A DNA stretch of 64,000 nucleotides from Polaribacter sp. Q13 (GTDB lineage: Bacteria; Bacteroidota; Bacteroidia; Flavobacteriales; Flavobacteriaceae), in NCBI RefSeq assembly GCF_016858305.2, contig NZ_CP074436.1, positions 2,190,001-2,254,000 of the forward strand, in the 5' to 3' direction. Below are positions 16,447-42,200 of this stretch, in pieces; positions within the stretch are counted from its first letter, which is position 1; every line of letters starts with the position of its first letter. The notes under the pieces were generated by a model. The model saw only the letters and a list, made by a program, of their open reading frames with translations. It was not told where the DNA came from and did no database searches. Made by a program: the position numbers and the translations under genes.

Positions 16447-17016
16447 TTATAATTCTTCATATGTTCTTACAAGTTTTTGTTTCGCTCTTTTAATTCTCAT
16501 TTTAACAGCGCTTTCACCAATACTTAAAGATTCTTGAATCTCTTTAATCGTCATATCATCTTGATATTTCATTAAAAGAATCATCTTTTCTGTTGGATCA
16601 ATTAAAGTTAATGCTTTTGCCAATTTCTCTGATTTCAACTCAAACAGAGTTACATCATCAATTTCTTGAAAATCATCTTCTTCTTTTATATTATCTGTAA
16701 CAACCGTAACTTTTTCCTTCTTTTTAAAATCATTTCTTTGCACGTAATTTACACAGAAATTATAAGTAAAAGAATACAACCAAGTAGAAAACTTAGAATT
16801 ACCCTTAAAGGTTTTTATTTTTACAAATAACCTGATAAAAACGTCATGTGTTAAATCTTCTGCTTCTTCCTTGTTTTTGGAAAAACCATAACACTTATTA
16901 TAAACTACCTTAGAAAATCTATCATATAATACAGCAAACAATTGTGAGTTATTTGTTTCTACTATTTTAAAGACTAATTCTTCGTCGCTTAAAGCTTTAA
17001 CATCTATCGTTTTCAA
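16447..17016 (-). CDS. ECF-type RNA polymerase sigma factor (RpoE/SigW-like)
   Basis: A group-4 sigma factor of 189 residues. Region 2 spans about 20-90, with LYDRFSKVVYNKCYGF, the 2.2 block EAEDLTHDVFIRLF near 52-65, and FSTWLYSFTYNFCVNYVQR. A short acidic linker (EEDDFQEIDD) follows. Region 4 lies at about 130-189, with MTIKEIQESLSIGESAVKMR as the DNA-binding helix-turn-helix. It lacks regions 1 and 3. It heads an operon with a 62-residue protein and an MscS channel. A GTGACTT-N15-GTCAAA element (17056-17029, minus strand) just before its start matches those upstream of the three giant surface genes, suggesting autoregulation. The gap from that box to the ATG is only 12 bases, so the transcript would be nearly leaderless. 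Confidence 0.92.
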   Translation of the reverse strand: MKTIDVKALSDEELVFKIVETNNSQLFAVLYDRFSKVVYNKCYGFSKNKEEAEDLTHDVFIRLFVKIKTFKGNSKFSTWLYSFTYNFCVNYVQRNDFKKKEKVTVVTDNIKEEDDFQEIDDVTLFELKSEKLAKALTLIDPTEKMILLMKYQDDMTIKEIQESLSIGESAVKMRIKRAKQKLVRTYEEL

Positions 17017-17028
17017 TTCAGTTATTAT

Positions 17029-17056
17029 TTTGACACAAAGAAATAAAAGAAGTCAC
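17029..17056 (-). promoter_or_regulatory. ECF-type promoter element of the sigma factor gene (GTGACTT-N15-GTCAAA)
   Basis: On the minus strand GTGACTT occupies 17056-17050 and GTCAAA 17034-17029, separated by exactly 15 bases. This is the same 7-mer and spacing as upstream of the genes at 21579, 26732 and 39223. Layout and sequence resemble the E. coli sigma-E consensus (GGAACTT-N15-GTCTAA class). Placement directly before an ECF sigma gene fits autoregulation. Confidence 0.6.
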
Positions 17057-17218
17057 ATTTAAAATAAATAAAAAGTTTAAGCACCCTTTAATGTCGGTGA
17101 ATGGCAAGAAACCTACTTTTAAAAAAAAACATGAAACTTTTTGTAACATAAAGTTAGATTCATACGTATAATAAAATGTAGCAATACATTAATCCTTTAA
17201 AAAGCAATAGAGAATTAG

Positions 17219-18082
17219 ATGAGACAACTAAAAATTACCAAGCAGGTTACTAATAGAGAAACTGCATCGTTAGATAAATACTTACAAGAAATAGGTAAAG
17301 TAGACTTAATTACTGCTGATGAAGAAGTAGAATTGGCACAGCTTATTAAAGCTGGTGACCAAAGAGCATTAGAGAAATTAACAAAAGCAAATTTACGTTT
17401 CGTTGTATCTGTTGCAAAACAATACCAAAATCAAGGATTAACGTTACCAGATTTAATTAACGAAGGAAACTTAGGTTTAATTAAAGCAGCAAAACGTTTT
17501 GATGAAACAAGAGGTTTTAAATTTATATCATATGCCGTTTGGTGGATTCGTCAATCTATCTTACAAGCCTTAGCAGAACAATCTAGAATTGTACGTTTAC
17601 CGTTAAATAAAATTGGTTCTATCAATAAAATTAACAAAATGTACGCTTTCTTAGAGCAAGAAAACGAAAGACCTCCAAGTCCAGAAGAAATTGCTAAGAA
17701 ATTAGATATGACTGTGAATGACGTAAAAGAATCTATGAAAAATTCTGGTCGTCACGTATCTATGGATGCTCCTTTAATTGAAGGTGAAGATTCTAATTTA
17801 TACGACGTTTTAAACTCTGGAGAATCTCCAAATCCTGATAGAAAATTATTACACGAATCTCTAAGAATAGAAATTAATAGAGCTTTAGAAACATTAACTC
17901 CACGTGAAGCTGATGTTGTAAAATTATACTTTGGTTTAGGAGAACACCAACCAATGACTTTAGAAGAAATTGGTGAAACTTTCGATTTAACTCGTGAGCG
18001 TGTTCGTCAGATTAAAGAAAAAGCAATTAGAAGATTAAAACACACTTCTAGATCTAAAATCTTAATGACTTACTTAGGTTAG
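17219..18082 (+). CDS. rpoD: Primary RNA polymerase sigma factor RpoD/SigA
   Basis: The housekeeping sigma factor, 287 residues. It has region 1.2 ([20 protein letters not shown]), region 2 with the 2.3/2.4 block [19 protein letters not shown], region 3 and a complete region 4 ending in the helix-turn-helix [20 protein letters not shown]. It lacks region 1.1 and the non-conserved insert, as is normal for the short primary sigma of Bacteroidota, which reads TTG/TAnnTTTG promoters. It is divergent from the ECF sigma operon across a 202-base region that holds the ECF element, so both sigma genes share one regulatory interval. Confidence 0.95.
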
Positions 18083-18138
18083 CAATCGCAGATTGCATTA
18101 GGTATTTCACTTACAATCTTAAAAAGTATATAAAACTT

Positions 18139-18173
18139 AAAACTCTCAAATTCATTTTTGGGAGTTTTTTTTT
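18139..18173 (+). terminator. Terminator of rpoD
   Basis: The stem AAAACTCTC / GGGAGTTTT (one G-T pair) is followed by an unbroken run of T. It lies 57 bases after the stop codon. Confidence 0.85.
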
Positions 18174-18320
18174 GAAGCTATTTCCTGCTTTCACTACTCG
18201 CTTTTTTTATCCTAAAAAGGAATAAAAAAGAGCTCAAACAAACCGTTCAATCAGGGCTAAACCTATTAAAATTCAAATTTATTAAACACTAACATTTGCT
18301 TCTTTTTAAAAACCTTTTAC

Positions 18321-21051: not shown

Positions 21052-21578
21052 AATTTCCCTTTTAAATATAAAAGCAAATTTCTGAATAAAACCAACCTTA
21101 AAAGATGATTTATATCAGTTTTAAAAAATTAATGAAATATTTAACTTCTGCTAATCAAATAGTATTAAGAAACACTTAAAGAAAAACACTTAAAACAATA
21201 ACCAAATCGTTAATTAACAAGTATCATTTCACAATAAAAATCACATCTATAACTCTGGTTTCCAAGGAATAAATGATATTTTAAAAAAAAATAGTATTTT
21301 AGTACTATTGAATACATACAATACACAGGCCCCCGATGTAAGTTGTAATAGATTTTAAAAAAAATTACTAATTAGGGCCTAAGATATACAAAGGTTAAAT
21401 ATCCGTATACTATGAAATCAATAACTACCTACAATAAATAGCAACAAGAAACGTTCACAAATGTGACTTACAAAATAAAAGTGTGTCTTATAAGTAGAAT
21501 CTGCTCATAGTTAAAACCCTAATTACAAGATAACTATTAAAAAAAAACATAATAATCATCCTCCAAAATAACTGAAAA
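21052..21578. other. Long 5' regulatory interval before the first giant surface gene
   Basis: I see no coding region. It contains a small hairpin at 21290-21309 (AATAGTA / TACTATT), a pair of AGGCCC / GGGCCT arms at 21327-21332 and 21375-21380 enclosing a structured-looking segment, and the ECF-type element at 21463-21490. The 88 bases between that element and the ATG would be the untranslated leader. Confidence 0.6.
21463..21490 (+). promoter_or_regulatory. ECF-type promoter element upstream of surface gene 1 (GTGACTT-N15-GTCTTA)
   Basis: GTGACTT at 21463-21469, 15 bases, then GTCTTA at 21485-21490. Sequence and spacing are identical to the elements upstream of surface genes 2 and 3, although the surrounding bases are not conserved, which argues for function over recent duplication. 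Confidence 0.6.
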
Positions 21579-24500
21579 ATGTTTAACTTAAAAAATAATA
21601 TTCTCTTTATAATAATATTATTTAGCTGTGTTATAAATAATACATATGCTCAATCTTCATATTGTACGCCTATAAATTCTAAGAGTAATAATACGTTTTT
21701 TATAAGTAAAGTAAGTTTTGGTGACATTTTTCAAAACTCAGATAATACGGCATCTGTTTACGAGTATTACAATACTTTATCCACACATACAGATGTTAAT
21801 TTAGGGCAAGATTATCCTGCTTCTATTAGTTATCGTGCACCAAACTATAATACAAGCACATTAAAAGTATGGATAGATTTCAATAAGGATGGTGATTTTT
21901 CTGACTCCGGAGAAGAAGTGTATACCAACACAGTAACCGAACCTTTTAGTGAAGACGGGGTTCAAAAAGATTTTCAAATAAATATCCCCACAACTGCAAC
22001 TACTGGAAAAACTAGAATGCGTGTAGCCATAAATAGAAAGAATATAAGTAATGCTTGTAATGCTGAACATCAAGCAGGTGAAATGGAAGATTATGATATT
22101 TACATAAAAGACGAGGTTGTAGCCCCCATTGCAAACTGTGTTGGTTCTATTAATATTAGTTTGGATGCACTAGGAAATGCATCTATAACAGCAGAAGATA
22201 TTAACAACGGTTCTTACGATGCTTACGACACTCCAAATGGACTAGATTTACATTTATCATTAGACAAGTATAACTTTAGTTGCCAAAATGTTTCAACTCC
22301 CACAACCGTTACTTTAACCGTTGTCGATTCCGATGGCTTATCATCCACCTGTACATCAACCGTAAACGTTACATCTTATACTGGTAATTTTGTAGCTCCA
22401 ACTTTAGAAGATATAAAAGAATATTGTTCATATACCGCTGCTACTCCCGTAATGAACCTTAATTGCACACAAGAAATTACAGCTACAACAACAGACGATA
22501 CAACTTTTAACTCCCCAGGTTCTTACACTATAGATTGGGTATTTGATAATGGAACAACCACAAAAACGAGTACACAAAACATTACAATACAAACACCTAC
22601 TTTACCTACTATTTCAATAACAAATATTAGTGAAACTACTGCAATAGTTCGTTGGGAATCTGAGGATACAGACTCTTTTATAGTACAATATCGTTTAAAC
22701 GGCACTACAGCGTGGAATGAAATAACTTCTACCTTAAAATATGTAAAAATAACAGGTTTAGACGACGGTTTAGAATATGATGTACAAGTTAAAACAGCAT
22801 CTACATGCGATGATAGTTATACTGGAACCGCTACTTTTAACACTGTAGACGTAGAATATTGTGATGACAATGTAGATATTGAGAAAAACAATAAATATTA
22901 TATTTCTAATGTTCATATTGGAAATATCAACAACTCTAGTGACAGTAATGCAGATGTCTACAAATATTATAAAAACGTTTCGACAAATATCGTAGCAGGA
23001 GAAACATTTTCTGGAGAATTAACTTATACTAGAGACACTTATAATAATACATTTGTAACTGTCTGGATAGATTATAATAACAACGGTGATTTCTCAGACC
23101 CGGAAGATGAAATTTTTAGTGCCGCCAATCCTGCGGATATAAATAGTGTTTTTAACATAGCACTTACAAATATTTTAGTACCAGAAACTGCTGCATTAGG
23201 AAAAACAAGATTGCGTGTTAGCATTAAACACAATGCTACTCCTTCAACTGCTTGTAATTTTGATAGTCAAATAGGAGAAATTGAAGATTATGACATATAT
23301 ATAGGCCCAATAGACAATACAGCTTTTGAGTCCGCAATGATTACACAAGTACTTAACTACAATGAAACAGACAGATGGATAGAAGTTACAAACACAAATC
23401 TAACAGAAACAATACCCGCTAATAAAGTTGCTTTGGCTTTATTTAAAAACGTGTCTGGAGATCAGACAGGAGTTACGCCTTCTTCAACTTTTTTTATAAA
23501 CTCAGAGATAGCACCTGGTGCAACTGTTTTAATTAAAAAACCAACTTCCACCTTTACTTCAACAGGTATAACCATAGAAGAAACTCAAATTACAGATTTT
23601 GGTGATGGTGATGACATCATTATAACTACAAAAAAAACAGATAACACAGCTTGGGAAAACAGGTATGACGTAGTTTCTTATATAAAAAACAACACTTCTC
23701 TAGTAAGAATAGATGAAACCATGGCTCCCAACAAAAATTATAATTCTGCAGAATGGGTAGAATTTATTGATGACGATATAACTCCATACCAAACAGTGGG
23801 GGAAACCGATGTTACTGGAACTAAAAGACACTCTCAAGACCCCTTAATTTCTGAAATTGAAGACTCTAATTCTGAAGCAAATACATTATTAGGACTACAT
23901 AAGTTAAAAGAAACAACTACAAATATTGATGGTACTTGGGATAATGGTTTCCCTGACAGATCTCGTTCTGTTGTAATTGATCAGAATTTTGAACATTCTG
24001 TAGATAGACTAAGTGCAAGAACACTAGAAATATCAACAAATAAAACATTAACAGTAACAGACCAATTGTTAGTGGTTACTAATAATATAACTTTAAATGG
24101 AAACATTCGTTTAAAAGGTCCTTTATCTCAATTAGTACAAACACACTCGAGTACGAGTATGATTTCTGGTACTGGTAAATTGCTTATAGACCAAAAATCT
24201 ATGGTACCTAGTTTGTATCGTTATAATTATATGAGTTCACCAGTTACTTCTGGGACTAACACCTATACTTTAAAAGACGTACTTAGAGATGGCACTGATA
24301 TAGACAACCCTAAAATAATTAATTTTAAGGAGGGTTATGATGGTGCCACTACAGACCCTATTTCTTTAGCAAAATACTGGATATACACCTACTCTCCTGC
24401 CACTAACGGAAGATCTAATTGGGAACATCAATATGATAATCTTCCTATTAAAAAAGGTGACGGTTATATTTTTAAAGGACCCGGAAAATTATTAGGTCAA

Positions 24501-25706
24501 AATTATACCTTTATAGGAACCCCAAATGATGGTGATTTTGACACTGCGCTTCCTATAGGTGCGGGACAAGATTATTTAATAGGAAACCCCTTTCCTTCTG
24601 CAATGAATGCTAGAAAATTTATTGAAGATAATAGCACCATCACCGGAACGCTTTATTTCTGGGAACATCATGAAAGTAAACTTGGTGAAGTAACGGGAAT
24701 AAACGGACATATATTTGGTGGCTATGTTGGTGGCTATGCAACCGTAAACTTATCTATGGGATTAAAAGCTGCAGACGCTACAATTTCTAGTAATGTAAAT
24801 AACGGAACTTCTGGCTTAGGCAATGATACTTATACAAAACCAGAAGCATATATAGCCGTTGGGCAAGGTTTCTTTATAGAAGGAGGTACAGGTGGTGCAA
24901 TTAACTTTAACAACAGCCAAAGAGCTTATGTTCCTTTAGCGGATGGTGAATCTGTGTTTTATAAAACAAATACAAAAAGCAGTAAGACAGCAACCGTAAA
25001 TACGAGTAATTTATTACCTATTATTAAATTAGGTTTGGATTATAAAAACAAGGACGACTTATTGCTACACCATCAAATTGGTATTTCTTTTGATAAAACA
25101 AATTCTTTTAATTTTGATAGAGGATATGACTCTGAACTTTATGAAACTAATGAAACAGCTGTATATTGGAAATTCCCTAATAATGACACCAAGTATGTAA
25201 TTGCTGGGGTACAAGCTATTTCAGATCATTTAGAAGTTCCTTTAGAAATTACAATGGGCTATTCTGGAACGGTAGATATAATGGTAGATGAAATTCAGAA
25301 TGTTTCTAATCACCTATTTCTTACAGATAAACTTACCAGTGAATCTTATAATATTACAGATGGTAAAATTACATTAACTCTAGATAAAGGAGTATATACA
25401 GATCGTTTTGTGCTTGCTTTTGCTACAAATAGTGCACTAAGTATAGAAGAAGATAGCTTATCTATGTACACCAATATTTATGCAGATAATGAGAATCATC
25501 AAATTGTAATTTCTAAAAACAACGAAGTAAACATTACCAATGTGGAGTTATTTGACATCCTTGGTAAAAAGGTAAATCTTTGGGAAATTACAGAACAAAA
25601 AAATACGTATCAATTAGAGATTAAAAATAAAATACTTACAGGTATTTATATTGTAAAAATAGATACAGACAAAGGTACAATGAATAAGAAAATTGTAATT
25701 GAGTAA
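21579..25706 (+). CDS. Large secreted surface protein 1: GEVED, fibronectin-III, shared C-terminal platform, T9SS sorting domain
   Basis: A 1375-residue exported protein. The signal peptide is at 1-25 (ending NNTYAQ). Two GEVED-type domains lie at about 40-177 and 430-577, each with a VWIDxNxxGDFSD block and ending GE(M/I)EDYDIYI. An HYR-like segment is at about 185-265 and a fibronectin type III domain at about 341-425. From about residue 585 it shares a platform of about 790 residues with the two giants downstream. This begins with a lamin-tail-like module (RWIEVTN) and continues through [25 protein letters not shown] and FGGYVGGYAT. It ends in a type A T9SS sorting domain ([15 protein letters not shown] near 1322). 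It is predicted to be exported by T9SS and kept at or released from the cell surface; adhesion or substrate binding is likely but unproven. Confidence 0.88.
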   Translation: MFNLKNNILFIIILFSCVINNTYAQSSYCTPINSKSNNTFFISKVSFGDIFQNSDNTASVYEYYNTLSTHTDVNLGQDYPASISYRAPNYNTSTLKVWIDFNKDGDFSDSGEEVYTNTVTEPFSEDGVQKDFQINIPTTATTGKTRMRVAINRKNISNACNAEHQAGEMEDYDIYIKDEVVAPIANCVGSINISLDALGNASITAEDINNGSYDAYDTPNGLDLHLSLDKYNFSCQNVSTPTTVTLTVVDSDGLSSTCTSTVNVTSYTGNFVAPTLEDIKEYCSYTAATPVMNLNCTQEITATTTDDTTFNSPGSYTIDWVFDNGTTTKTSTQNITIQTPTLPTISITNISETTAIVRWESEDTDSFIVQYRLNGTTAWNEITSTLKYVKITGLDDGLEYDVQVKTASTCDDSYTGTATFNTVDVEYCDDNVDIEKNNKYYISNVHIGNINNSSDSNADVYKYYKNVSTNIVAGETFSGELTYTRDTYNNTFVTVWIDYNNNGDFSDPEDEIFSAANPADINSVFNIALTNILVPETAALGKTRLRVSIKHNATPSTACNFDSQIGEIEDYDIYIGPIDNTAFESAMITQVLNYNETDRWIEVTNTNLTETIPANKVALALFKNVSGDQTGVTPSSTFFINSEIAPGATVLIKKPTSTFTSTGITIEETQITDFGDGDDIIITTKKTDNTAWENRYDVVSYIKNNTSLVRIDETMAPNKNYNSAEWVEFIDDDITPYQTVGETDVTGTKRHSQDPLISEIEDSNSEANTLLGLHKLKETTTNIDGTWDNGFPDRSRSVVIDQNFEHSVDRLSARTLEISTNKTLTVTDQLLVVTNNITLNGNIRLKGPLSQLVQTHSSTSMISGTGKLLIDQKSMVPSLYRYNYMSSPVTSGTNTYTLKDVLRDGTDIDNPKIINFKEGYDGATTDPISLAKYWIYTYSPATNGRSNWEHQYDNLPIKKGDGYIFKGPGKLLGQNYTFIGTPNDGDFDTALPIGAGQDYLIGNPFPSAMNARKFIEDNSTITGTLYFWEHHESKLGEVTGINGHIFGGYVGGYATVNLSMGLKAADATISSNVNNGTSGLGNDTYTKPEAYIAVGQGFFIEGGTGGAINFNNSQRAYVPLADGESVFYKTNTKSSKTATVNTSNLLPIIKLGLDYKNKDDLLLHHQIGISFDKTNSFNFDRGYDSELYETNETAVYWKFPNNDTKYVIAGVQAISDHLEVPLEITMGYSGTVDIMVDEIQNVSNHLFLTDKLTSESYNITDGKITLTLDKGVYTDRFVLAFATNSALSIEEDSLSMYTNIYADNENHQIVISKNNEVNITNVELFDILGKKVNLWEITEQKNTYQLEIKNKILTGIYIVKIDTDKGTMNKKIVIE

Positions 25707-26646: not shown

Positions 26647-26674
26647 GTGACTTTTTAATTCTAAAAGGGTCTTA
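26647..26674 (+). promoter_or_regulatory. ECF-type promoter element upstream of surface gene 2 (GTGACTT-N15-GTCTTA)
   Basis: GTGACTT at 26647-26653, 15 bases, GTCTTA at 26669-26674; the ATG follows 57 bases later. TAACCTTG immediately overlapping the second box is also close to the -7 consensus, so a housekeeping-type promoter using the same bases cannot be excluded. Confidence 0.6.
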
Positions 26675-29700: not shown

Positions 29701-32700
29701 AGCTGTAAACACAGTAAATGACATCAATCAAACTCCCATAAATACATCTGTTGATGGCGCATTATTAACTAATGACGAAAATGTAACAAGTGTAACTTCG
29801 GTTATTATAAATGGTACTACAACTGCTGTTACTACTGCAGGAGTAACTATTAATAATATTCCTGGTGTAGATGAAAACAATGTTGCAGTTCCTAATGCTG
29901 GTACAATTACAATCAAAGAAGACGGAACGTATACCTTTACTCCTACTCCTGGTTTTACAGGAACTATCGATCCGATAACCTATACAGGTGAGGGAGCAGA
30001 TAATGAAACAGATACAGCTACTTTATCCATTGAAGTAATTCCAAACATTCAGCCAGTTGGAAATAATCCGCCAACAGCGCAAAACGATGTAAATACTACA
30101 GAGTTAAATACAACGGTAAACGGTACCGTACTTAATAATGATAGTGATCCAGATAGTAATCCTCTTACAGTAACATCTGCAACAGGTTTAACTATTGGTT
30201 CTGCTTCTTCTGTTAGCGGTGTAGATGAAAATGGAGCTACTGTAAATGCGGGTACTGTTCAATTAAATACCGATGGAACGTATACATTTATTCCGGCTAC
30301 AGGTTTTACAGGTACTGTAAATGATATTACCTACACTGTTTCTGATGGAAATGGTGGAACTGATACCGCAATTCTTAACTTAAATGTAATTGCTAATTTT
30401 GGCAACAATACTTTTACAAATGATGATGCAAACTCTGCGCCGCAAGGAACAGATATGACTGGAAACTTATTGGCGAACGATAATGACCCAGAAGGTAATG
30501 ACCAAGATATTACTAGTATTTTAGTAGACACAAATGGAGACGGAACAGCAACTTCGGTTACTCCAGTTGCTGGAACTCCAATAAATGTTTATGAAGATGG
30601 AGTGAAAGTTGGTACAATTGATGTAAATCCTGAAACAGGTGCATACACCTTTAAACCAGAATCTACTTTTGTTGGTACTTTGCCTGTTACTTACACAGCA
30701 TGTGATGACGCAACGACTCCTGCTTGTGACCAAGCTACTTTGTATTTGACTTCGATTCCTGTAGATATTACGGCAGAAAACGATATCAATCAAACGCCAC
30801 AAGACACACCTGTGGACGGTGCTTTATTAACAAATGATGAAGGTGTTGATAGCGTAACTACTGTAAAAGTAGGAACTACTGATTATACTGTTCCTGCAGG
30901 AACTACTGGAACTCCAGGAAGTGTAGTAATTACAAACGTACCCGGTGTAGATGAAAACGGAAATCTAGTTACAAATGCAGGTTCAATAACTATTAAATCT
31001 GACGGAACTTACTCTTTTGAACCTACCGCTGGTTTTACAGGAACTATCGATCCGATAACCTATACTGGTAAAGGTGATGGTACTGCTACAGATACAGCAA
31101 TATTATCTATTGAAGTAATTCTGAATGTGCAGCCAAATAGCAATCCGCCAACGGCGCAAAACGATGTTAATACTACGGAAGTTAATACAACAATTACAGG
31201 CTCAACTGTATTGGCTAATGATTCTGATACAGATAATACAAATGCTGAATTGACAGTTTCTTCTACGCAGGTTACTACCGGTACTGCAACTCAAGTTTCT
31301 GGAAAAGATAAAGACGGAAATGATGTTACAGATGCTGGTGATCTTACTTTAAATGCTGACGGAACCTATACGTTTGTTCCTTCTACAGACTTTACAGGTA
31401 CCATTAATGATATTACATACACCATAACTGATCCTGATGGTTTAAAAGATACCGCAATTCTTAGTATAGATGTAATTGCTAATTTTGGCAACAATACTTT
31501 TACAAATGATGATGCAAACTCTGCGCCGCAAGGAACAGATATGACTGGAAACTTATTGGCGAACGATAATGACCCAGAAGGTAATGACCAAGATATTACT
31601 AGTATTTTAGTAGACACAAATGGAGACGGAACAGCAACTTCGGTTACTCCAGTTGCTGGAACTCCAATAAATGTTTATGAAGATGGAGTGAAAGTTGGTA
31701 CAATTGATGTAAATCCTGAAACAGGTGCATACACCTTTAAACCAGAATCTACTTTTGTTGGTACTTTGCCTGTTACTTACACAGCATGTGATGACGCAAC
31801 GACTCCTGCTTGTGACCAAGCTACTTTGTATTTGACTTCGATTCCTGTAGATATTACGGCTGAAAATGATATCAATCAAACGCCACAAGACACACCTGTG
31901 GACGGTGCTTTATTAACAAATGATGAAGGTGTTGATAGTGTAACTACTGTAAAAGTAGGAACTACTGATTATACTGTTCCTACAGCAACTGGAGGAACTC
32001 CAGGTAGTATAGTAATTACAAACGTACCCGGTGTAGATGAAAACGGAAATCTAGTTACAAATGCTGGTACAATTACTATTAAATCTGACGGAACTTACTC
32101 TTTTGAACCTACCGCTGGTTTTACAGGAACTATCGATCCGATAACCTATACTGGTAAAGGTGATGGTACTGCTACGGATACAGCAATATTGTCTATTGAA
32201 GTAATTCCGAATGTGCAGCCAAATAGCAATCCGCCAACGGCGCAAAACGATGTTAATACTACGGAAGTTAATACAACAATTACAAACGCAACGGTACTTT
32301 CTAATGATTCTGATCTTGATGGAGATACTTTAACAGTAACCGCTGCTAATGGATTAACTATTGATACTGCAACACAAGTTACTGGTAAAGATAAAAATGG
32401 AGTTGTAGTTGCAAATGCAGGTACTCTTCAATTAAATACGAATGGAACTTATGAGTTTATTCCTGCTACTGATTTTACAGGAACTGTAGACGATATTACC
32501 TACACAATTTCTGATGGAAACGGTGGTACAGACACCGCAATTCTTAGCATAGATGTTATTGACAATTTAGGAAATAACACTTTTGCTAATGATGATGCCA
32601 ACTCTGCTCCACAAGGAACAGATATGACTGGAAACTTATTGGCGAACGATAATGACCCAGAAGGTAACGACCAAGATATTACAAGTATTTTAGTAGACAC

Positions 32701-35700
32701 AAATGGAGACGGAATAGCAACTTCGGTTACTCCAGTTGCTGGAACTCCAATAAATGTTTATGAAGATGGAGTGAAAGTTGGTACAATTGATGTAAATCCT
32801 GAAACAGGTGCATACACCTTTAAACCAGAATCTACTTTTGTTGGTACTTTGCCTGTTACTTACACAGCATGTGATGACGCAACGACTCCTGCTTGTGACC
32901 AAGCTACTTTGTATTTGACTTCGATTCCTGTAGATATTACGGCTGAAAATGATATCAATCAAACGCCACAAGACACACCTGTGGACGGTGCTTTATTAAC
33001 AAATGATGAAGGTGTTGATAGTGTAACTACTGTAAAAGTAGGAACTACTGATTATACTGTTCCTACAGCAACTGGAGGAACTCCAGGTAGTATAGTAATT
33101 ACAAACGTACCCGGTGTAGATGAAAACGGAAATCTAGTTACAAATGCTGGTACAATTACTATTAAATCTGACGGAACTTACTCTTTTGAACCTACCGCTG
33201 GTTTTACAGGAACTATCGATCCGATAACCTATACTGGTAAAGGTGATGGTACTGCTACGGATACAGCAATATTGTCTATTGAAGTAATTCCGAATGTGCA
33301 GCCAAATAGCAATCCGCCAACGGCGCAAAACGATGTTAATACTACGGAAGTTAATACAACAATTACAAACGCAACGGTACTTTCTAATGATTCTGATCTT
33401 GATGGAGATACTTTAACAGTAACCGCTGCTAATGGATTAACTATTGATACTGCAACACAAGTTACTGGTAAAGATAAAAATGGAGTTGTAGTTGCAAATG
33501 CAGGTACTCTTCAATTAAATACGAATGGAACTTATGAGTTTATTCCTGCTACTGATTTTACAGGAACTGTAGACGATATTACCTACACAATTTCTGATGG
33601 AAACGGTGGTACAGACACCGCAATTCTTAGCATAGATGTTATTGACAATTTAGGAAATAACACTTTTGCTAATGATGATGCCAACTCTGCTCCACAAGGA
33701 ACAGATATGACTGGAAACTTATTGGCGAACGATAATGACCCAGAAGGTAACGACCAAGATATTACAAGTATTTTAGTAGACACAAATGGAGACGGAATAG
33801 CAACTTCGGTTACTCCAGTTGCTGGAACTCCAATAAATGTTTATGAAGATGGAGTGAAAGTTGGTACAATTGATGTAAATCCTGAAACAGGTGCATACAC
33901 CTTTAAACCAGAATCTACTTTTGTTGGTACTTTGCCTGTTACTTACACAGCATGTGATGACGCAACGACTCCTGCTTGTGACCAAGCTACTTTGTATTTG
34001 ACTTCGATTCCTGTAGATATTACGGCTGAAAATGATATCAATCAAACGCCACAAGACACACCTGTGGACGGTGCTTTATTAACAAATGATGAAGGTGTTG
34101 ATAGTGTAACTACTGTAAAAGTAGGAACTACTGATTATACTGTTCCTACAGCAACTGGAGGAACTCCAGGTAGTATAGTAATTACAAACGTACCCGGTGT
34201 AGATGAAAACGGAAATCTAGTTACAAATGCTGGTACAATTACTATTAAATCTGACGGAACTTACTCTTTTGAACCTACCGCTGGTTTTACAGGAACTATC
34301 GATCCGATAACCTATACTGGTAAAGGTGATGGTACTGCTACGGATACAGCAATATTGTCTATTGAAGTAATTCCGAATGTGCAGCCAAATAGCAATCCGC
34401 CAACGGCGCAAAACGATGTTAATACTACGGAAGTTAATACAACAATTACAAACGCAACGGTACTTTCTAATGATTCTGATCTTGATGGAGATACTTTAAC
34501 AGTAACCGCTGCTAATGGATTAACTATTGATACTGCAACACAAGTTACTGGTAAAGATAAAAATGGAGTTGTAGTTGCAAATGCAGGTACTCTTCAATTA
34601 AATACGAATGGAACTTATGAGTTTATTCCTGCTACTGATTTTACAGGAACTGTAGACGATATTACCTACACAATTTCTGATGGAAACGGTGGTACAGACA
34701 CCGCAATTCTTAGCATAGATGTTATTGACAATTTAGGAAATAACACTTTTGCTAATGATGATGCCAACTCTGCTCCACAAGGAACAGATATGACTGGAAA
34801 CTTATTGGCGAACGATAATGACCCAGAAGGTAACGACCAAGATATTACAAGTATTTTAGTAGACACAAATGGAGACGGAATAGCAACTTCGGTTACTCCA
34901 GTTGCTGGAACTCCAATAAATGTTTATGAAGATGGAGTGAAAGTTGGTACAATTGATGTAAATCCTGAAACAGGTGCATACACCTTTAAACCAGAATCTA
35001 CTTTTGTTGGTACTTTGCCTGTTACTTACACAGCATGTGATGACGCAACGACTCCTGCTTGTGACCAAGCTACTTTGTATTTGACTTCGATTCCTGTAGA
35101 TATTACGGCTGAAAATGATATCAATCAAACGCCACAAGACACACCTGTGGACGGTGCTTTATTAACAAATGATGAAGGTGTTGATAGTGTAACTACTGTA
35201 AAAGTAGGAACTACTGATTATACTGTTCCTACAGCAACTGGAGGAACTCCAGGTAGTATAGTAATTACAAACGTACCCGGTGTAGATGAAAACGGAAATC
35301 TAGTTACAAATGCTGGTACAATTACTATTAAATCTGACGGAACTTACTCTTTTGAACCTACCGCTGGTTTTACAGGAACTATCGATCCGATAACCTATAC
35401 TGGTAAAGGTGATGGTACTGCTACGGATACAGCAATATTGTCTATTGAAGTAATTCCGAATGTGCAGCCAAATAGCAATCCGCCAACGGCGCAAAACGAT
35501 GTTAATACTACGGAAGTTAATACAACAATTACAAACGCAACGGTACTTTCTAATGATTCTGATCTTGATGGAGATACTTTAACAGTAACCGCTGCTAATG
35601 GATTAACTATTGATACTGCAACACAAGTTACTGGTAAAGATAAAAATGGAGTTGTAGTTGCAAATGCAGGTACTCTTCAATTAAATACGAATGGAACTTA

Positions 35701-38572
35701 TGAGTTTATTCCTGCTACTGATTTTACAGGAACTGTAGACGATATTACCTACACAATTTCTGATGGAAACGGTGGTACAGACACCGCAATTCTTAGCATA
35801 GATGTTATTGACAATTTAGGAAATAATACTTTTGCAAATGATGATGCCAACTCTGCTCCACAAGGAGAAGAAATCTCCGGTAATGTATTGAGTAACGATA
35901 ATGATCCTGAAGGAAATACGCAAACAGTTACAGCACAAACAAATGTTATTCCAAATATTGGTACAGTAACCATAGCAACCGATGGTTCTTATACTTTTGT
36001 TCCTGAATCTGATTTTGCTGGAACTGTTCCGGTAATATACAACGTATGTGATAATGCAACTCCACAAGCTTGTGACCAAGCTACTTTGTATTTGACTTCG
36101 ATTCCTAAAATAATTGCTGCAGATGCAATGATTACACAAGTATATCAAGTTGGTACAGAAAGATGGATTGAAATTACAAATATTGGGACAACAGATATTC
36201 TTGCAAATACTATTATAGTACAATTGTATAAAGATCAAACAACGGATCCTACAGAAGCGCCAAACGTTTCTTATACAATTACAACTTTATTAGAAGCTGG
36301 TGAATCTGTATTGTTTAAAAACTCTGCAAACGGAATTGTGAATTTAAGAAGTACGGCAACAGTTGTTGAAAAAGATGACTTAACAGATCTTGAAGGAGGA
36401 AATGATATAATTACACTTTCTACCGCTACAGGTACTACTTCATGGGCCAATAGATATGATGTTGTTAAAGACATCGCAAACAACACTTCAGTTGTAAGAA
36501 TTGATGACAGAGGTGATAATACATTTGGACCTATAAAAGACTATATAAGTTCTGATTGGGTAGTATTTATTGATGATGCAATTACTCCTTATCAACCGGT
36601 AGGTACTGAAACAGCTGACATAACAGCTATTGTAAGACATCCTCAAGATGCTTTAATCTCTGAAATAAAAAAGTCTAGTTTAGAGGCAAATACTTTGTTA
36701 GGTTTACATAGAGTTAATATTACAACTTCTAATTCTAGCAGTAACACTTGGACAAATGGATTCCCAGACAGATCTCGTCACGTAGTAATAGACCAAGATT
36801 TTGAACATACTGGTAATAGATTAAGTGCTAGAAAACTAGAAGTAGCTGCTACTTTCACGTTAACAGTAACAGATCAATTGTTAGTAGTTACTAATGATAT
36901 TATTTTAGATGGTAATATCCGTTTAGCTGGTACATCTCAATTAGTACAAACACACACAGGTACTAGTACAATTACAAGTACAACTGCAGGTGTTATGGGG
37001 AATCTTTTAGTAGATCAAAATTCTACAATACCAAGTTTATATAGATATGGGTACATGAGCTCCCCAGTTAATTCATCTGGCTCTACATACTCCATAGAAG
37101 ATGTTCTTAAAGATGGTACTATACCATTAGATGCTACCTCTGTAGTAGGAACTACCATAGCAAAAGATATTACTTTTGTTAGTGGATATGATGGTACTTA
37201 TGACGAAACTACAAATACCGTGGCTATTTCTTTAGCAGATTACTGGATATACACATACGCTCCAGGATCTACAGGAAGAGCTAATTGGGTACATAAGTGG
37301 AGAGCGGGAACAATAGATAGAGGTGATGGGTTTATTTTTAAAGGACCTGGAAAAGAACAAAATTATACTTTTATAGGTATTCCTAATGATGGTAACTTTA
37401 ATACAGCACTTCCTATTGGTGCTGGTGAAGATTATTTAGTTGGTAACCCTTTTCCTTCTGCTATGAATGCTAGAAAGTTTATGGAAGACAATGTTAGTTC
37501 TATTAATCAAACACTATATTTCTGGGAACATCACAAAAGTGCTATCGGTGAAGGAAACGGAATCGATGGACACATATTTGGTGGATACATTGGTGGATAT
37601 GCAACACTTAACTTAGCAACAGGAACAGCTGCAGATAGTTCTATCCCTAGTAATAAAGATAACGGAACTTCTGGTTTAGGTACTGCTAAATATAATGAAC
37701 CTAAACCATATATTGCTATGGCACAAGGTTTCTTTGTAGAAGGAAACGGAACTGGTGGAGTTATAAAATTTGATAATAGTCAAAGAGCTTATGTAACCGA
37801 AGAAGGTGGTATAAATGCAGAATCTGTATTCTTTAAAACAAATGCAAAAAGCAGTAAAACTGAAACTAAAAGCAATTTATTACCTATTATTAAATTAGGT
37901 TTCGAATATAAAAATGCTGAAGACTTATTCTTACACCATCAAATAGCAATTTCTTTTGATCAAGTAAATTCTTTTGATTTTGATAACGGATATGACTCTG
38001 AAGTATACGAAACTGGTAAAACAGACCTATACTGGAAATTCCCTTCAGATGATAACAATTATGTAATTGCAGGTGTACAAGAAATCTCTAATGAATTAGA
38101 AGTGCCTTTAGAACTTGCAATGGACTATACAGGTCAAGTAAATCTAATGGTAGATGAAATTCAGAATGTATCTAGAGACATTTACATTACAGATAAGCTT
38201 ACAGGAATTTCTTATAACATTACTAGTGATATAATTACTTTAGACCTAGAGAAAGGTACATATACAGATCGTTTTGTATTCGCTTTTAAAGAAACTTCTG
38301 TACTTGGTTTAGATGAAGATATCTTAGCTGCATATACTAATATCTATGCAGACAACGAAAACCATCAAATTGTAATTTCTAAAAACAATGAAGTAGCAAT
38401 TAATAAAGTTGAGTTGTATGACATACTTGGTAAAAAAGTGAGTCTTTGGAATATTAAAGAGCAAAAAACCACGTACCAATTAGACATCAACAAACAAATA
38501 CCAACAGGTGTCTACATTGTAAAAATGAATACCAATAAAGGTTCAATAAACAAGAAAGTAGTTATTGAATAA
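26732..38572 (+). CDS. Giant secreted surface protein 2: tandem Ig/cadherin-like array, type-3 repeats, T9SS sorting domain
   Basis: A 3946-residue exported protein. An unusually long signal segment at 1-40 has a basic KLFGGIIRFKFKTP stretch before the hydrophobic core and ends NTNAQ. A beta-rich region spans about 41-450. Thrombospondin type-3-like Asp-rich repeats lie near 457, 670, 748 and 912, separated by two jelly-roll-like modules. Ig/cadherin-like (tandem-95/VCBS type) domains begin near 990. Residues 1224-3029 are five tandem copies of a 361-residue unit, each holding three such domains. A last divergent Ig-like domain precedes the C-terminal platform (from about 3131) shared with the neighbouring giants, ending in a T9SS sorting domain ([15 protein letters not shown]). 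It is probably a calcium-stabilised, stalk-like adhesin. A paired terminator lies 45 bases downstream. Confidence 0.9.
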   Translation: MIKYLLKTKLFGGIIRFKFKTPLHLFIVFVLFSLINTNAQCDSPNFTLDSDQSSNYTFLAGVTKIEGAIRIYNSTATFNDGAVICISEGNSLTISNSSSSAGSISFIIEGGELIFNQNPQFDANVKVKISKTGTFTALNTISFNGGKNEIYNEGKLNVSQSLQFGSGSKNEIDNIGTLTVGGEINAQGTGLSHFRNQNIMVVGNNFQISSETTFVNCAEFTSDNSFNNKGLVVNTGTFNINNGSVEIGQNTSVFKNFGSFSVNGDINLTGEFYNEGFADIKSRIQGGGNVTGPPTSESKTGYIKIGGQSNISGTVGPNLDFSYTFTTGVPIQSTKIDPSVTYNCADNGSCNNPMDTTEVCANLDGTIPCALNDPGTLNGSCINGSDLQFTLNLTGNGKTGGSYTISDTTVSTGSYGTSTVFIITGGADSNDRTITITDVDDPDCNLTFTVTGTVSCDNDNDGVDDYLDLDDDNDGILDTTEYNCSPQNLVWSDHFNEGTSPSTGDDPTTATASPTLSFDGVDVTVSRTTNTTGNWKIENSYSTTYAYVWRQESISYGETINTFQFSRSVNDLSFTVYDVDAAISFIDEIYFEVISQGSSYIMTPSDYTFSGSITNSSDNTFTGAGTDENLQINFSVPVDKLVIHYKQVANSASGNQATAIGDLSFCVPADTDNDGIPDYLDTDSDNDGCSDADEAYYGTVNNADGDNNGTYGTGTPTVNSSNGKVTSASYSTPNTYYLNATANTCEDNDNDGIADFEDLDDDNDGILDTDELNCLSASTATDGITDSQGFASTTSINDGDVVADDGFAMNNTSHYFILDLGQVYESGTTIKFDIWGNNTSTRTVVTSEIPLGTYSTTNLINSQTNAVGVDTLADYSYTLESATQYVQVDMVARSGGRTEWVEATITLNCSSQDTDGDGISNHLDLDSDGDGCFDALEGAETITASQLTSTGAITGTVDSDGVPTAVSAGGQGQGAGTSTDKDIQSSECNTAVNTVNDINQTPINTSVDGALLTNDENVTSVTSVIINGTTTAVTTAGVTINNIPGVDENNVAVPNAGTITIKEDGTYTFTPTPGFTGTIDPITYTGEGADNETDTATLSIEVIPNIQPVGNNPPTAQNDVNTTELNTTVNGTVLNNDSDPDSNPLTVTSATGLTIGSASSVSGVDENGATVNAGTVQLNTDGTYTFIPATGFTGTVNDITYTVSDGNGGTDTAILNLNVIANFGNNTFTNDDANSAPQGTDMTGNLLANDNDPEGNDQDITSILVDTNGDGTATSVTPVAGTPINVYEDGVKVGTIDVNPETGAYTFKPESTFVGTLPVTYTACDDATTPACDQATLYLTSIPVDITAENDINQTPQDTPVDGALLTNDEGVDSVTTVKVGTTDYTVPAGTTGTPGSVVITNVPGVDENGNLVTNAGSITIKSDGTYSFEPTAGFTGTIDPITYTGKGDGTATDTAILSIEVILNVQPNSNPPTAQNDVNTTEVNTTITGSTVLANDSDTDNTNAELTVSSTQVTTGTATQVSGKDKDGNDVTDAGDLTLNADGTYTFVPSTDFTGTINDITYTITDPDGLKDTAILSIDVIANFGNNTFTNDDANSAPQGTDMTGNLLANDNDPEGNDQDITSILVDTNGDGTATSVTPVAGTPINVYEDGVKVGTIDVNPETGAYTFKPESTFVGTLPVTYTACDDATTPACDQATLYLTSIPVDITAENDINQTPQDTPVDGALLTNDEGVDSVTTVKVGTTDYTVPTATGGTPGSIVITNVPGVDENGNLVTNAGTITIKSDGTYSFEPTAGFTGTIDPITYTGKGDGTATDTAILSIEVIPNVQPNSNPPTAQNDVNTTEVNTTITNATVLSNDSDLDGDTLTVTAANGLTIDTATQVTGKDKNGVVVANAGTLQLNTNGTYEFIPATDFTGTVDDITYTISDGNGGTDTAILSIDVIDNLGNNTFANDDANSAPQGTDMTGNLLANDNDPEGNDQDITSILVDTNGDGIATSVTPVAGTPINVYEDGVKVGTIDVNPETGAYTFKPESTFVGTLPVTYTACDDATTPACDQATLYLTSIPVDITAENDINQTPQDTPVDGALLTNDEGVDSVTTVKVGTTDYTVPTATGGTPGSIVITNVPGVDENGNLVTNAGTITIKSDGTYSFEPTAGFTGTIDPITYTGKGDGTATDTAILSIEVIPNVQPNSNPPTAQNDVNTTEVNTTITNATVLSNDSDLDGDTLTVTAANGLTIDTATQVTGKDKNGVVVANAGTLQLNTNGTYEFIPATDFTGTVDDITYTISDGNGGTDTAILSIDVIDNLGNNTFANDDANSAPQGTDMTGNLLANDNDPEGNDQDITSILVDTNGDGIATSVTPVAGTPINVYEDGVKVGTIDVNPETGAYTFKPESTFVGTLPVTYTACDDATTPACDQATLYLTSIPVDITAENDINQTPQDTPVDGALLTNDEGVDSVTTVKVGTTDYTVPTATGGTPGSIVITNVPGVDENGNLVTNAGTITIKSDGTYSFEPTAGFTGTIDPITYTGKGDGTATDTAILSIEVIPNVQPNSNPPTAQNDVNTTEVNTTITNATVLSNDSDLDGDTLTVTAANGLTIDTATQVTGKDKNGVVVANAGTLQLNTNGTYEFIPATDFTGTVDDITYTISDGNGGTDTAILSIDVIDNLGNNTFANDDANSAPQGTDMTGNLLANDNDPEGNDQDITSILVDTNGDGIATSVTPVAGTPINVYEDGVKVGTIDVNPETGAYTFKPESTFVGTLPVTYTACDDATTPACDQATLYLTSIPVDITAENDINQTPQDTPVDGALLTNDEGVDSVTTVKVGTTDYTVPTATGGTPGSIVITNVPGVDENGNLVTNAGTITIKSDGTYSFEPTAGFTGTIDPITYTGKGDGTATDTAILSIEVIPNVQPNSNPPTAQNDVNTTEVNTTITNATVLSNDSDLDGDTLTVTAANGLTIDTATQVTGKDKNGVVVANAGTLQLNTNGTYEFIPATDFTGTVDDITYTISDGNGGTDTAILSIDVIDNLGNNTFANDDANSAPQGEEISGNVLSNDNDPEGNTQTVTAQTNVIPNIGTVTIATDGSYTFVPESDFAGTVPVIYNVCDNATPQACDQATLYLTSIPKIIAADAMITQVYQVGTERWIEITNIGTTDILANTIIVQLYKDQTTDPTEAPNVSYTITTLLEAGESVLFKNSANGIVNLRSTATVVEKDDLTDLEGGNDIITLSTATGTTSWANRYDVVKDIANNTSVVRIDDRGDNTFGPIKDYISSDWVVFIDDAITPYQPVGTETADITAIVRHPQDALISEIKKSSLEANTLLGLHRVNITTSNSSSNTWTNGFPDRSRHVVIDQDFEHTGNRLSARKLEVAATFTLTVTDQLLVVTNDIILDGNIRLAGTSQLVQTHTGTSTITSTTAGVMGNLLVDQNSTIPSLYRYGYMSSPVNSSGSTYSIEDVLKDGTIPLDATSVVGTTIAKDITFVSGYDGTYDETTNTVAISLADYWIYTYAPGSTGRANWVHKWRAGTIDRGDGFIFKGPGKEQNYTFIGIPNDGNFNTALPIGAGEDYLVGNPFPSAMNARKFMEDNVSSINQTLYFWEHHKSAIGEGNGIDGHIFGGYIGGYATLNLATGTAADSSIPSNKDNGTSGLGTAKYNEPKPYIAMAQGFFVEGNGTGGVIKFDNSQRAYVTEEGGINAESVFFKTNAKSSKTETKSNLLPIIKLGFEYKNAEDLFLHHQIAISFDQVNSFDFDNGYDSEVYETGKTDLYWKFPSDDNNYVIAGVQEISNELEVPLELAMDYTGQVNLMVDEIQNVSRDIYITDKLTGISYNITSDIITLDLEKGTYTDRFVFAFKETSVLGLDEDILAAYTNIYADNENHQIVISKNNEVAINKVELYDILGKKVSLWNIKEQKTTYQLDINKQIPTGVYIVKMNTNKGSINKKVVIE
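30401..35818 (+). repeat. Five-unit tandem repeat of about 1083 bp inside surface gene 2
   Basis: Units start at 30401, 31487, 32570, 33653 and 34736 (lengths 1086, 1083, 1083, 1083, 1083). A diverged partial sixth begins at 35819. Units 3, 4 and 5 look identical base for base by eye. Units 1 and 2 differ mainly in the third Ig-like domain. Each unit is a whole number of codons (361 or 362), so gain or loss of a unit keeps the reading frame. Confidence 0.92.
37472..38215 (+). repeat. Near-identical tract shared with surface gene 3 (copy A)
   Basis: About 740 bases here match 48271-49014 with only a handful of differences. The sequence just outside, both 5' and 3', is clearly more diverged. 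This is the pattern expected from recent gene conversion between the two paralogues. Confidence 0.85.
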
Positions 38573-39035: not shown

Positions 39036-39063
39036 TAAATAACTTTAATCTTTAGAAATAAAA

Positions 39064-39091
39064 GTGACTTTTCTATTTTAAAAAGGTCTTA
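39064..39091 (+). promoter_or_regulatory. ECF-type promoter element upstream of surface gene 3 (GTGACTT-N15-GTCTTA)
   Basis: GTGACTT at 39064-39070, 15 bases, GTCTTA at 39086-39091. The following AACTTG continues to resemble the gene 2 upstream region. The leader to the ATG at 39223 would be about 125 bases, longer than for the other two genes. Confidence 0.6.
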
Positions 39092-39222
39092 AACTTGGTA
39101 CTCGTTCATAAAAACGATGCACAAGCTGCTAAAACTTTCTTAAATGATTAAATAAAGCAGTCTGCAATAAAATGCACTGTACATTAAAAACGTAAAAAAA
39201 ATATTTATCAAAGTAAAAAAAC

Positions 39223-42200
39223 ATGAGAAATAAATACTTATTTATAAAAGGATTAATTACCTGTAGTTTCCTTTTATTTTTTATTACAAATACTCAAGCA
39301 CAGACAAATGCAACGAGTATTAAAACAGGTGCAAGTTTTAAATGGACAGTTGATCAACCTACAAGAAAACATCCCGCTATTATAGAAAGTATTATTATAA
39401 ATGGTGAAGAATACGATTTATTCGTAGCTCCTTCTGGTTATCAATTAACGGAATTAGGTCCAGATGGTCATAGTAAAAATGCCATTAATCTAAATGGTGC
39501 CAAACAAATAAAGAATAGTGGTCCTACTCCTGCCTCTACAGTAAATGGTTACGGAAGTGCTGCTTGGAATACAGCAGCCTTAGCCGCTTTTCAAGATAAA
39601 AACTTAAACCATTATTTTACGGCCAAACCAAACGGAGCAGATATTTGTGATAATTTTACTCTGGAAGAAGATATAAATACAAAAACGCAAAGACAATCAT
39701 TATTATACAGTCCGGCAATTCCTTCTAACCAAGGAGCAATTGTAGCAATTACAGAACGAAACGCTAACAACTGTTATCATATTGAAGTTTTTGGTACAAC
39801 TAACACTAATAACACAGAGCACTCTTTAGGAGAAACTTTTGTAAAACCATATGGTTCTGCTAAATTTGGTCCAGGAGGAACAGGAGTTTCTGGAGCAGTA
39901 ACAAAACCAAGTGATGGTTCTGACTATTGGTTATCAGACCGTGTTGTAGATACAGGTGGAACTCTAGGTATCGCCTTATTTTATTTAAACGAAATAGCGC
40001 CTACGGGTTCTAAAATTACTAGAGTTCAATTAACTGCAGCATCAAGCGATCATGGTGATGGAAAGTTTTTTATTGTTCAATCTTACGCAACAAACTCACA
40101 GACAAAAATTATCTGGAACCAACCTTTTATAAATGGTAATGTTACAGATAATAATCAGGTACCAGTAGGTTCTACTTACAGCAATGTTGGTTCTGGCCCT
40201 AGTAATGGAGTTTTAGAGTTTAATGCAGACGGTACTTATACATATACACCAAATGATAATTTTACAGGAATTGATACTTTTGAATACCAAGTATGTTTAC
40301 CTGCGCCAAATACTTCTCTTTGTGATACAGCAACAGTAACAATTATTGTTAAACAAGGTGATTCTGATTATGATGGGGTTACAGATGACATAGATTTAGA
40401 TGATGATAATGATGGTATTCCAGACATTTTAGAAAGCGGAGGAAACAACCCTGATGGAGATGAAGATGGAGACGGAATTCCTAACTACAAAGACACTACA
40501 GACAATGGTAATACCGGAGATAGTAGTGCAACAAATTATACAGATGCTGATGGAAATGGTATTCCGGATGTATACGATACAGACGGAGACGGCATTGCTA
40601 ATCATTTAGATTTAGACGGAGACAACGATGGTATTGCAGATATTGTAGAAGCAGGTGGTGTAGATACTAATGGAGATGGTGTAATCGATAACCCAACTGA
40701 TGGAGATCCAACATCAATGGTAGATGCAGATAATGATGGTTTAGCAGATATCTATGATAACAATGTAACAGGTGGAACTAATGGAACACCTATTGCTAAT
40801 CCAGATTCAGATGGAGATGGTATTTCAGATGCACAAGACTTAGACTCAGACAACGATGGTATTCCAGATGTTGTAGAAGCTGGTGGTATAGATGCAAATG
40901 GAGATGGTAGAATAGATGGTAGAATAGATGATACAACAGACAATGATAACGACGGATTTGCAGATTCTGTAGATGGAGATGTAAATGGAACTACAGACGA
41001 TACAAAAGCACTAATTATTACAGGTGAAGATGGTAATAATGATGGTGTTCCAGACAGTTATCCGAATGGAGATACAGACGGAGACGGCTTATTAGACAGT
41101 AAAGACTTAGATGCAGACAACGATGGTATTCCAGATTTAATAGAAGCTGGCGGAGTAGATACTAATGGAGACGGACGTGTAGATGAAGATACAGATACAG
41201 ACAACGATGGTTTGGCAGACATTTATGATACAAATGCTTCAGACGGTCCAGGAACTAATGGTACAAACGGTAATGCACTTGTAAAAACAGATGCGACTGG
41301 TACTATGGTAGGTGGCAATAATAATACTATTGACACCGATGGTGATGGTATTCCGAATCATTTAGACTTAGACTCAGACAACGATGGTATTGTAGATATT
41401 ATTGAAGCCGGAGGAACCGATGCTAATAGAGACGGAAAAGTAGATAATATTGATGCTACAGGTAAATTAACAACAGACACAGATAATGATGGTTTTGATG
41501 ATGTTGTAGATGGTAATGTAAACGGAACAGACAACTCAAGTAATGCTTTAATTACAACAGGTACAGATACGAATACTGATGGAATAGCAGACACTTACAC
41601 AAAAGGTAATGCTGATACAGACAATCTACCTAACTTTTTAGACATCGATGCAGATAATGATGGTATTCCAGACAATATAGAAGCACAAACTACAGCAGAT
41701 TATATTGCTCCAAGTGGTGTTGGTACAGCTATGGCTGACGCAAATAATAATGGTATCGACGATAAATATGAAGTAGGTACCGTAGGTATTACTCCAACAA
41801 ATACAGACAATACAGATAGCCCAGATTATTTAGACTCAGATTCAGACAATGATGGTATTGCAGATATTGCCGAAAATGGAAATGAGAGTAACAGTTTGTC
41901 TGGTATAGATACCGATGGAGATGGTTTAGATGATAATTTTGAAGGTTCAAATAAGAATGATCCTTATGACGTAAATGATGAAATAGATACACCAAATGCA
42001 AGTAATTTAGGAGATGAAGATTCAGATTTAGATTCAGGTGGAGATGTAGATTATAGAGATTTTAAAGATAATGATGGTGATGGAGTATCAGACTTCTTTG
42101 ATTTAGATGATGATAATGACGGAATTTTAGATACAGATGAAGGCTGTGGTAACTTAATTATAAATGGTGATTTCGAACTTCAAGATTTTTCTAGTACATC

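Follow-up and report, generated by a model that had tools for sequence, protein, structure and literature searches.

A candidate SigX-like ECF sigma factor of Polaribacter sp. Q13 and its predicted regulon of giant surface proteins, envelope proteins and a small RNA

The sigma factor locus and the giant surface protein genes

The window analysed here is a 64,000-nucleotide stretch of Polaribacter sp. Q13 contig NZ_CP074436.1 (32.3% GC), and the subject is a gene in it for an extracytoplasmic function (ECF) sigma factor together with a promoter motif, GTGACTT-N15-GTC, that is found before this gene and before three genes coding for giant surface proteins of the type IX secretion system (T9SS). 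The sigma gene (16447..17016, minus strand) is predicted to start at a TTG codon and encodes 189 residues that match Pfam Sigma70_r2 (6e-14) and Sigma70_r4_2 (3e-11); the matching models are confined to region 2, region 4 and Sigma70_ECF, with no region 1.1 or 3, identifying the product as an ECF factor. Named orthologues, up to 88% identical, come from Polaribacter and related Flavobacteriaceae, and rpoD is the divergent neighbour. Two genes follow on the same strand, one coding for a 62-residue helical protein (16256..16444), a candidate anti-sigma factor or CfrX-like partner conserved in the orthologous loci, and the other for a 278-residue MscS-family membrane protein (15414..16250; Pfam MS_channel_1st_1, 2.6e-17), a candidate tension sensor.

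On the plus strand, an ECF-type promoter of the form GTGACTT-N13-GTGTC-TTA (21463..21490) precedes a gene for a 1375-residue T9SS surface protein with GEVED and fn3 domains and a C-terminal sorting domain (21579..25706; 27.3 bits against a cut-off of 27). A second, GTGACTT-N13-GGGTC-TTA (26647..26674), precedes a gene for a 3946-residue adhesin-like T9SS protein with cadherin/CshA-type repeats and a sorting domain (26732..38572), and a third, GTGACTT-N13-AGGTC-TTA (39064..39091), precedes a gene for a 3382-residue T9SS surface protein (39223..49371). The sorting domains of the two larger proteins score 33.4 and 39.4 bits (TIGR04183, 39.4 bits for the 3382-residue protein) against a cut-off of 23, marking both as T9SS proteins.

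The motif as the promoter of the sigma factor

The original prediction had placed GTGACTT-N15-GTC elements before the ECF gene and the three giant T9SS genes, and an exact scan finds all four, at 17056-17032 on the minus strand and at 21463, 26647 and 39064 on the plus strand. Dinucleotide shuffles of the window (n = 100) give an expectation of 0.07 sites, and none of the 100 reaches four. Allowing one mismatch adds no further site in the window (2.45 expected), and a window scan with some altered boxes and with spacings of 14-16 finds nothing beyond the same four. The whole genome (4.42 Mb, a single contig) contains 10 exact sites, one of them (L008) apparently a chance occurrence, compared with 1 for the pattern read backwards; the proposed genome-wide scan came out favourably, and the presence of four of the ten inside one 64-kb window has a binomial probability of about 1e-5.

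The promoter of the sigma gene itself (GTGACTT-N13-GTGTC-AAA, 17029..17056, minus strand) is an exact site, and since the TTG codon at 17016 lies only 15 bases past GTC the leader is expected to be about 10 bases or less. A family footprint was assembled from the best 30 of 49 family matches, one per genus and including the window genome, and 10-12 of the 12 box positions are present before the sigma orthologue in 29 of these 30 loci, with 9 in the remaining one (L040); the best box match starts 41-72 bases before the aligned sigma start. All of the 79 named sigma loci, the best of 450 relatives, have 9-12 of 12 positions, with 67 at 11-12 and 44 exact with N15. The same best-of search on the opposite strand yields 30 loci at 7, 40 at 8, 7 at 9 and 2 at 10, and thus only scores of 11-12 are telling, which are reached in 67/79 loci on the forward strand and in 0/79 on the opposite strand.

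Alignment of 27 of the 30 family promoters (three were dropped for a score below 10 with N15 or for length) shows GTGAC in 27/27 and G.GTC nearly so, separated by a spacer of low information content, and outside the boxes A28 (27/27) and T26 (23/27) are also conserved, neither of which was used in choosing the sites. The fuller form is GTGACTT-N13-GTGTC-TWAA; the GTGACTT and GTC boxes first described are real, but the boxes extend further than was proposed. With two mismatches allowed, this sharper form has 18 sites in the genome versus 9 for the reversed control, such that many are chance matches at this level; the additional sites include those before an M48 lipoprotein gene, another lipoprotein-like open reading frame (ORF) and a paralogous ECF gene.

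The motif also tracks the presence of the sigma gene. With orthologues called at E<=1e-30, 45 of 120 family genomes are positive and 75 negative, and the sharp pattern is found 80 times, in 36 of the positive genomes (2 times when reversed), and is absent from all 75 negative ones (0 when reversed). Counts for the loose pattern and its reversed control are 245 and 101 across all 45 positives, and 61 and 96 across a set of 45 negatives. Within the genus, it is present in 26/26 sigma-positive genomes (146 sites, control 23) and 5/14 sigma-negative genomes (12 sites, control 16), with 7 of these 12 in a single assembly (G131) that is 67% complete. The associated P values (Fisher 1.6e-22 for the sharp form in the family, 7e-6 for the loose form in the genus) overstate the independence of genomes related by kinship. 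A chance origin of the motif is rejected by the window and genome counts, the sigma-dependence counts and the opposite-strand control, and the suggested comparison with related genomes proved favourable, the sharp form being restricted to sigma-positive family genomes. Sequence evidence can hardly tie the motif more firmly to this ECF sigma factor as its promoter, and autoregulation of the sigma gene, as originally proposed, is well supported by the phylogenetic footprint and by the dependence of the motif on the sigma gene.

The genome contains a second ECF gene (C1:3910560-3911108; L340), 49% identical to the first and followed by a 275-residue MscS-like gene, forming a duplicated module. 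A near-match promoter, GTGACTT-N13-GTGTT, lies upstream of it, and its product outscores the window ECF factor on the SigX model (109.4 versus 97.4 bits). These features could point to the boxes being bound by the paralogous ECF factor, or by a transcription factor, rather than by the sigma factor described here. We regard this as very unlikely, as a second sigma copy at E<=1e-30 is rare (4/45 family positives and 2/26 genus positives), yet the motif occurs together with the main orthologue and precedes its gene, and two boxes at a fixed spacing, in one orientation and near gene starts have the geometry of a promoter.

Giant surface proteins as predicted targets

The three giant proteins have a common C-terminal module (811-877 aligned positions, 58-77% identity). 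The spacers had been described as unconserved, which holds across the family, where they carry little information, but not for the sites at 26647 and 39064; since these two spacers are alike and the C-terminal modules of their genes are 77% identical, the two sites are probably copies rather than independent events. The stretches at 26010-26480 and 38812-38990 appear by eye to be decayed start and sorting-domain end pieces of further T9SS giants, and a similar EHEIAIGQE stretch occurs in a short ORF after the motif in L316. The 3946-residue protein contains similar repeats 361 residues apart (BLAST starts at 1708, 2069, 2430 and 2791), and its gene shows antisense ORFs spaced by about 1083 bases.

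Eight further genomes of the genus have the motif at most 330 bases upstream of an ORF of 831 to >2104 residues (L295, L306, L310, L315, L320, L324, L326 and L327), with a signal-peptide-like start as judged by eye; five of the eight are incomplete at the 3' end in the stretches examined. Several have modules in common with the window giants, and in L306 (genome G156) residues 16-813 align to the 3946-residue protein, beginning at residue 1 of the latter, with 47% identity; in front of it the boxes are kept and the spacer has diverged relative to the 26647 site. A 391-residue ORF after the motif in L312 passes the sorting-domain cut-off (39.6 versus 35).

It could be argued that the true targets are limited to the sigma gene itself plus a number of core genes, and that the sites before the three giants are left over from the copying of upstream DNA; the likeness of the upstream regions at 26647 and 39064, the 77% identity of the C-terminal module and the apparent decayed pieces nearby would all fit such an origin. 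The retention of the L306 boxes despite spacer divergence, the different spacer at 21463 and the recurrence of the motif before long secreted ORFs in the eight other genomes make it improbable. The association of the motif with giant secreted proteins thus recurs in the genus, with the T9SS tag seen in the window giants only. Control of the giant genes by the sigma factor is likely, and the prediction that it switches them on draws support from the footprinting and from the sigma dependence of the motif.

Other predicted regulon members

Beyond the window, predicted targets in the same genome are genes for an MscS channel, an OmpA-domain protein, a DUF3078 protein and a 65-residue secreted peptide, as well as a small RNA. 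The OmpA-domain gene (L003), a target of the OmpA/OprF family, has its ATG 60 bases from the motif start. Elsewhere in the genus, OmpA genes after the motif are confirmed by Pfam in L287, L294, L296 and L305, and the motif also precedes genes for MscS (confirmed in L304, others by likeness), aquaporin (L298 passes the AqpZ cut-off, 377 versus 256 bits), DUF3078-like proteins and small proline-rich secreted peptides.

A family survey covered 70 of the 80 sharp sites and recorded ORFs of >=60 residues starting within 330 bases, which are present at 55 sites and absent from 15. Pfam matches among the 55 are Sigma70_r2 (14, of which 3 are RpoD), DUF2853 (6), LysM (4), aquaporin family, M48 and RuvX (3 each), and MscS, DUF3078 and radical SAM (2 each; the one radical SAM target scanned is MtaB). 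One LysM/BON protein passes PRK11198 (198.5 versus 134), and the M48 target is related to BepA and LoiP, yet falls below both cut-offs. The targets MscS, OmpA, aquaporin, LysM/BON and M48, together with the MscS-fold partner, lend support to a possible role in envelope stress; surface contact, the other trigger first proposed, gains no separate support.

In three other genera (L102, L111 and L152) rpoD starts about 140 bases from a sharp motif; a promoter of this type before the window's own rpoD was considered and rejected, as the best match is 7 of 12. The 65-residue peptide belongs to a family of 61-65-residue secreted peptides (L010, L248, L255, L256 and L344) whose members combine a run of prolines, the sequence GLPID and a membrane stretch at the C terminus, and which follow the motif in several species; the L010 peptide has no Pfam or NCBIfam match.

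Small RNAs downstream of the motif

Motif sites that lack an ORF include several conserved short non-coding families with terminator-like hairpins at their ends. The best candidate small RNA, of roughly 80 nucleotides (C1:147365-147282, minus strand), lies in the window genome and has a conserved, covarying stem: among 8 sequences, 3 of its 11 pairs have changed on both sides. A search of 78 genomes with a covariance model built from only the transcribed part gave 18 strong hits (E up to 8e-6), 10 of them outside the set from which the model was built. In every one of the 18, 11-12 of the 12 box positions are present and the -35 box begins 29-33 nucleotides upstream of the first base of the model. 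Another 19 hits are weaker (E 1.4e-4 to 0.0095), and the 12 inspected have 5-8 of 12 box positions, except L390, which has 12. Among the 40 genus genomes scored for both features, strong hits occur in 11/26 sigma-positive and 0/14 sigma-negative genomes.

Further short non-coding families follow the motif in L308, L261 and L268; in L120, L124, L291 and L323; in L297 and L329; and in L140, and some have tandem motif arrays (three sites in L308 and three sharp sites in L140). The ten loci scanned yield two Rfam matches at gathering scores, neither of which identifies one of the small RNAs. L268 has a transfer RNA, and L308 has a match to C0465 that barely exceeds the threshold and lies over 1 kb away on the opposite strand.

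The 62-residue protein and the MscS-like protein

An orthologue of the 62-residue protein is present in 78 of the 79 named ECF loci, with 11 invariant columns in 49 sequences. Its structure model is helical (predicted local distance difference test score (pLDDT) 77, predicted template modelling score (pTM) 0.44), and it has no Pfam or PDB match. The 278-residue protein consists of extra N-terminal helices, a pore helix and a beta domain; its profile matches MscS in the PDB (5e-8), and its structure model matches MscS (4e-8) over a region running from pore helix through beta domain, with best template modelling scores (TM-scores) of only 0.25-0.4.

The MscS-like gene is adjacent in 29/30 family loci and 63/79 named loci, and by eye a similar gene also neighbours relatives of the sigma gene in other classes and phyla; PF05552 is present in 4/4 such loci scanned with Pfam (L359, L362, L364 and L366). 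In 14 Polaribacter loci (e.g. L162, L165, L173 and L207) that keep the sigma gene and promoter but in which no MscS-like gene is found within 2.8-3 kb, the 62-residue gene is retained in 13, which fits the role of anti-sigma factor that we infer for its product. In genomes G155 and G123 a distant relative of the MscS-like protein, 384-390 residues long, follows the motif at another place.

Relationship to known sigma factor systems

One review describes Pseudomonas SigX as the only studied ECF factor regulated by a mechanosensing complex (PMC8999054), and such a complex has been proposed for SigX-CfrX-CmpX-OprF (PMC8999054, PMC7641640); in P. aeruginosa, deletion of cmpX lowers sigX transcription (PMC10965496). 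The locus described here resembles this system (ECF102) in combining an ECF factor with a small, putatively soluble and CfrX-like protein and an adjacent MscS homologue, recognized by both profile and fold, as well as in suspected autoregulation and an OmpA-family target. It differs in gene order (sigma-small-MscS, whereas Pseudomonas cfrX-cmpX lie upstream of sigX), in the size of the small protein (62 residues versus 84 for CfrX), in having T9SS giants and a small RNA among its targets, and in its sharp promoter, the SigX consensus having been called 'not precisely defined' (PMC7641640).

Porphyromonas gingivalis SigP/PorXY likewise involves a Bacteroidota ECF factor linked to the T9SS. SigP controls secretion-machinery genes, in contrast to the cargo-type genes found here, is scarcely detectable without PorX, and has had a different motif proposed for it (PMC4800418). 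Within the family, the SM6 promoters of Flavobacterium psychrophilum are also ECF-type, with T9SS genes, an outer-membrane protein gene and the regulatory RNA Rfp11 downstream, and are induced in freshwater and low nutrients (PMC9723704). As described there, SM6 has a CGT -10 box and a sigma/anti-sigma pair among its genes, and the selection of genes presented names no MscS, aquaporin, OmpA-domain protein or DUF2853 (PMC9723704). From the described box and gene list, compared by description only, identity of SM6 with the present motif is thought unlikely. Among the open-access articles listed in literature searches, judged by titles and the starts of abstracts, none describes this motif or regulon, and an entry in the ECF reclassification is possible.

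The promoter had originally been likened to the sigma-E class, and the resemblance in promoter class stands, but Pseudomonas SigX is the closer parallel. Escherichia coli sigma-E, like the factor proposed here, serves the envelope, regulates its own gene and has non-coding RNAs among its targets; it differs in having the membrane anti-sigma factor RseA, DegS proteolysis and another promoter consensus. A general envelope-stress factor of this type, sensing damage to outer-membrane or T9SS proteins and having the MscS-like gene merely as a co-regulated effector, would account for the OmpA-domain, M48 and giant secreted targets and for the loci that lack an adjacent MscS-like gene while keeping the sigma gene, the promoter and usually the 62-residue gene; the sigma-driven small RNA likewise resembles the sigma-E RNAs. 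Neither ORF after the sigma gene is a usual membrane anti-sigma factor, the MscS-like neighbour persists across the family loci and into other classes and phyla, and the aquaporin, MscS and LysM/BON targets indicate turgor, which leads us to consider such a factor rather unlikely.

A possible membrane-tension switch

The reading we favour, and consider probable, is that of a SigX-like membrane-tension or envelope sigma factor that transcribes its own operon and an envelope regulon; of its elements, sequence supports the promoter, autoregulation, regulon, gene order and MscS fold. The sigma factor would transcribe the operon coding for itself, the 62-residue protein and the MscS-like protein, and in the window genome also the three T9SS giants, MscS, the OmpA-domain and DUF3078 proteins, the secreted membrane peptide and the small RNA. 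It would be kept inactive by the 62-residue protein until a change in membrane tension or stiffness, caused by hypo-osmotic shock or envelope damage, altered the MscS-like protein and freed it; positive autoregulation would then boost the response, and the cell would make valves, anchor its outer membrane and recoat its surface. Membrane tension as the signal, the direction of the response and its effect on protein levels are what we infer, and mechanosensing by this system is a good lead that we see as evenly balanced.

Several observations weigh against this interpretation. With about five loose sites per genome expected at random from the scaled shuffle rate, the loose pattern does not by itself amount to genome-wide proof, and the sharp form is absent from 9 of the 45 sigma-positive family genomes. 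The best of 85 NCBIfam models for the ECF protein is SigX (NF007222), at about 97.4-97.8 bits against a cut-off of 194, and membership of the SigX family is not claimed; given the higher SigX score and near-match promoter of the paralogue, the two ECF factors may share targets. The 14 Polaribacter loci without an adjacent MscS-like gene, and the recurring targets RuvX and MtaB, which fit no osmotic theme, count similarly, and none of the three complete long ORFs of sister genomes passes the sorting-domain cut-off (L327 has 33.9 versus 35; L320 and L324 have no match), which slightly lowers our confidence. Finally, overexpression of cmpX in P. aeruginosa leaves sigX and cfrX transcripts unchanged (PMC10965496), and an MscS-type channel therefore need not drive the sigma factor.

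A broader proposal, which we hold tentatively and at somewhat less than an even chance, is that a force-gated transcription switch occurs in Bacteroidota well beyond Flavobacteriaceae, in which the MscS-like receptor acts through the 62-residue protein as a soluble anti-sigma factor. Turgor or mechanical load would then turn on valves, the small RNA and the giant T9SS adhesins, such that force remodels the surface.

The core of the original prediction is supported by these comparisons and widened, as the predicted regulon is larger than the ECF gene and the three giants. Beside the Pseudomonas case, the system is a second, distant candidate for an ECF factor run by a mechanosensing complex; it has a sharply defined promoter, predicted targets across many genera and a small RNA that could serve as a reporter of activity. 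Little has been known so far of how its output, the giant T9SS surface proteins, is regulated; signalling from the MscS-like protein to the sigma factor, and the trigger of giant surface proteins in marine Flavobacteriaceae, are now directly testable, and a single switch may couple membrane stress to the outer coat of the cell.

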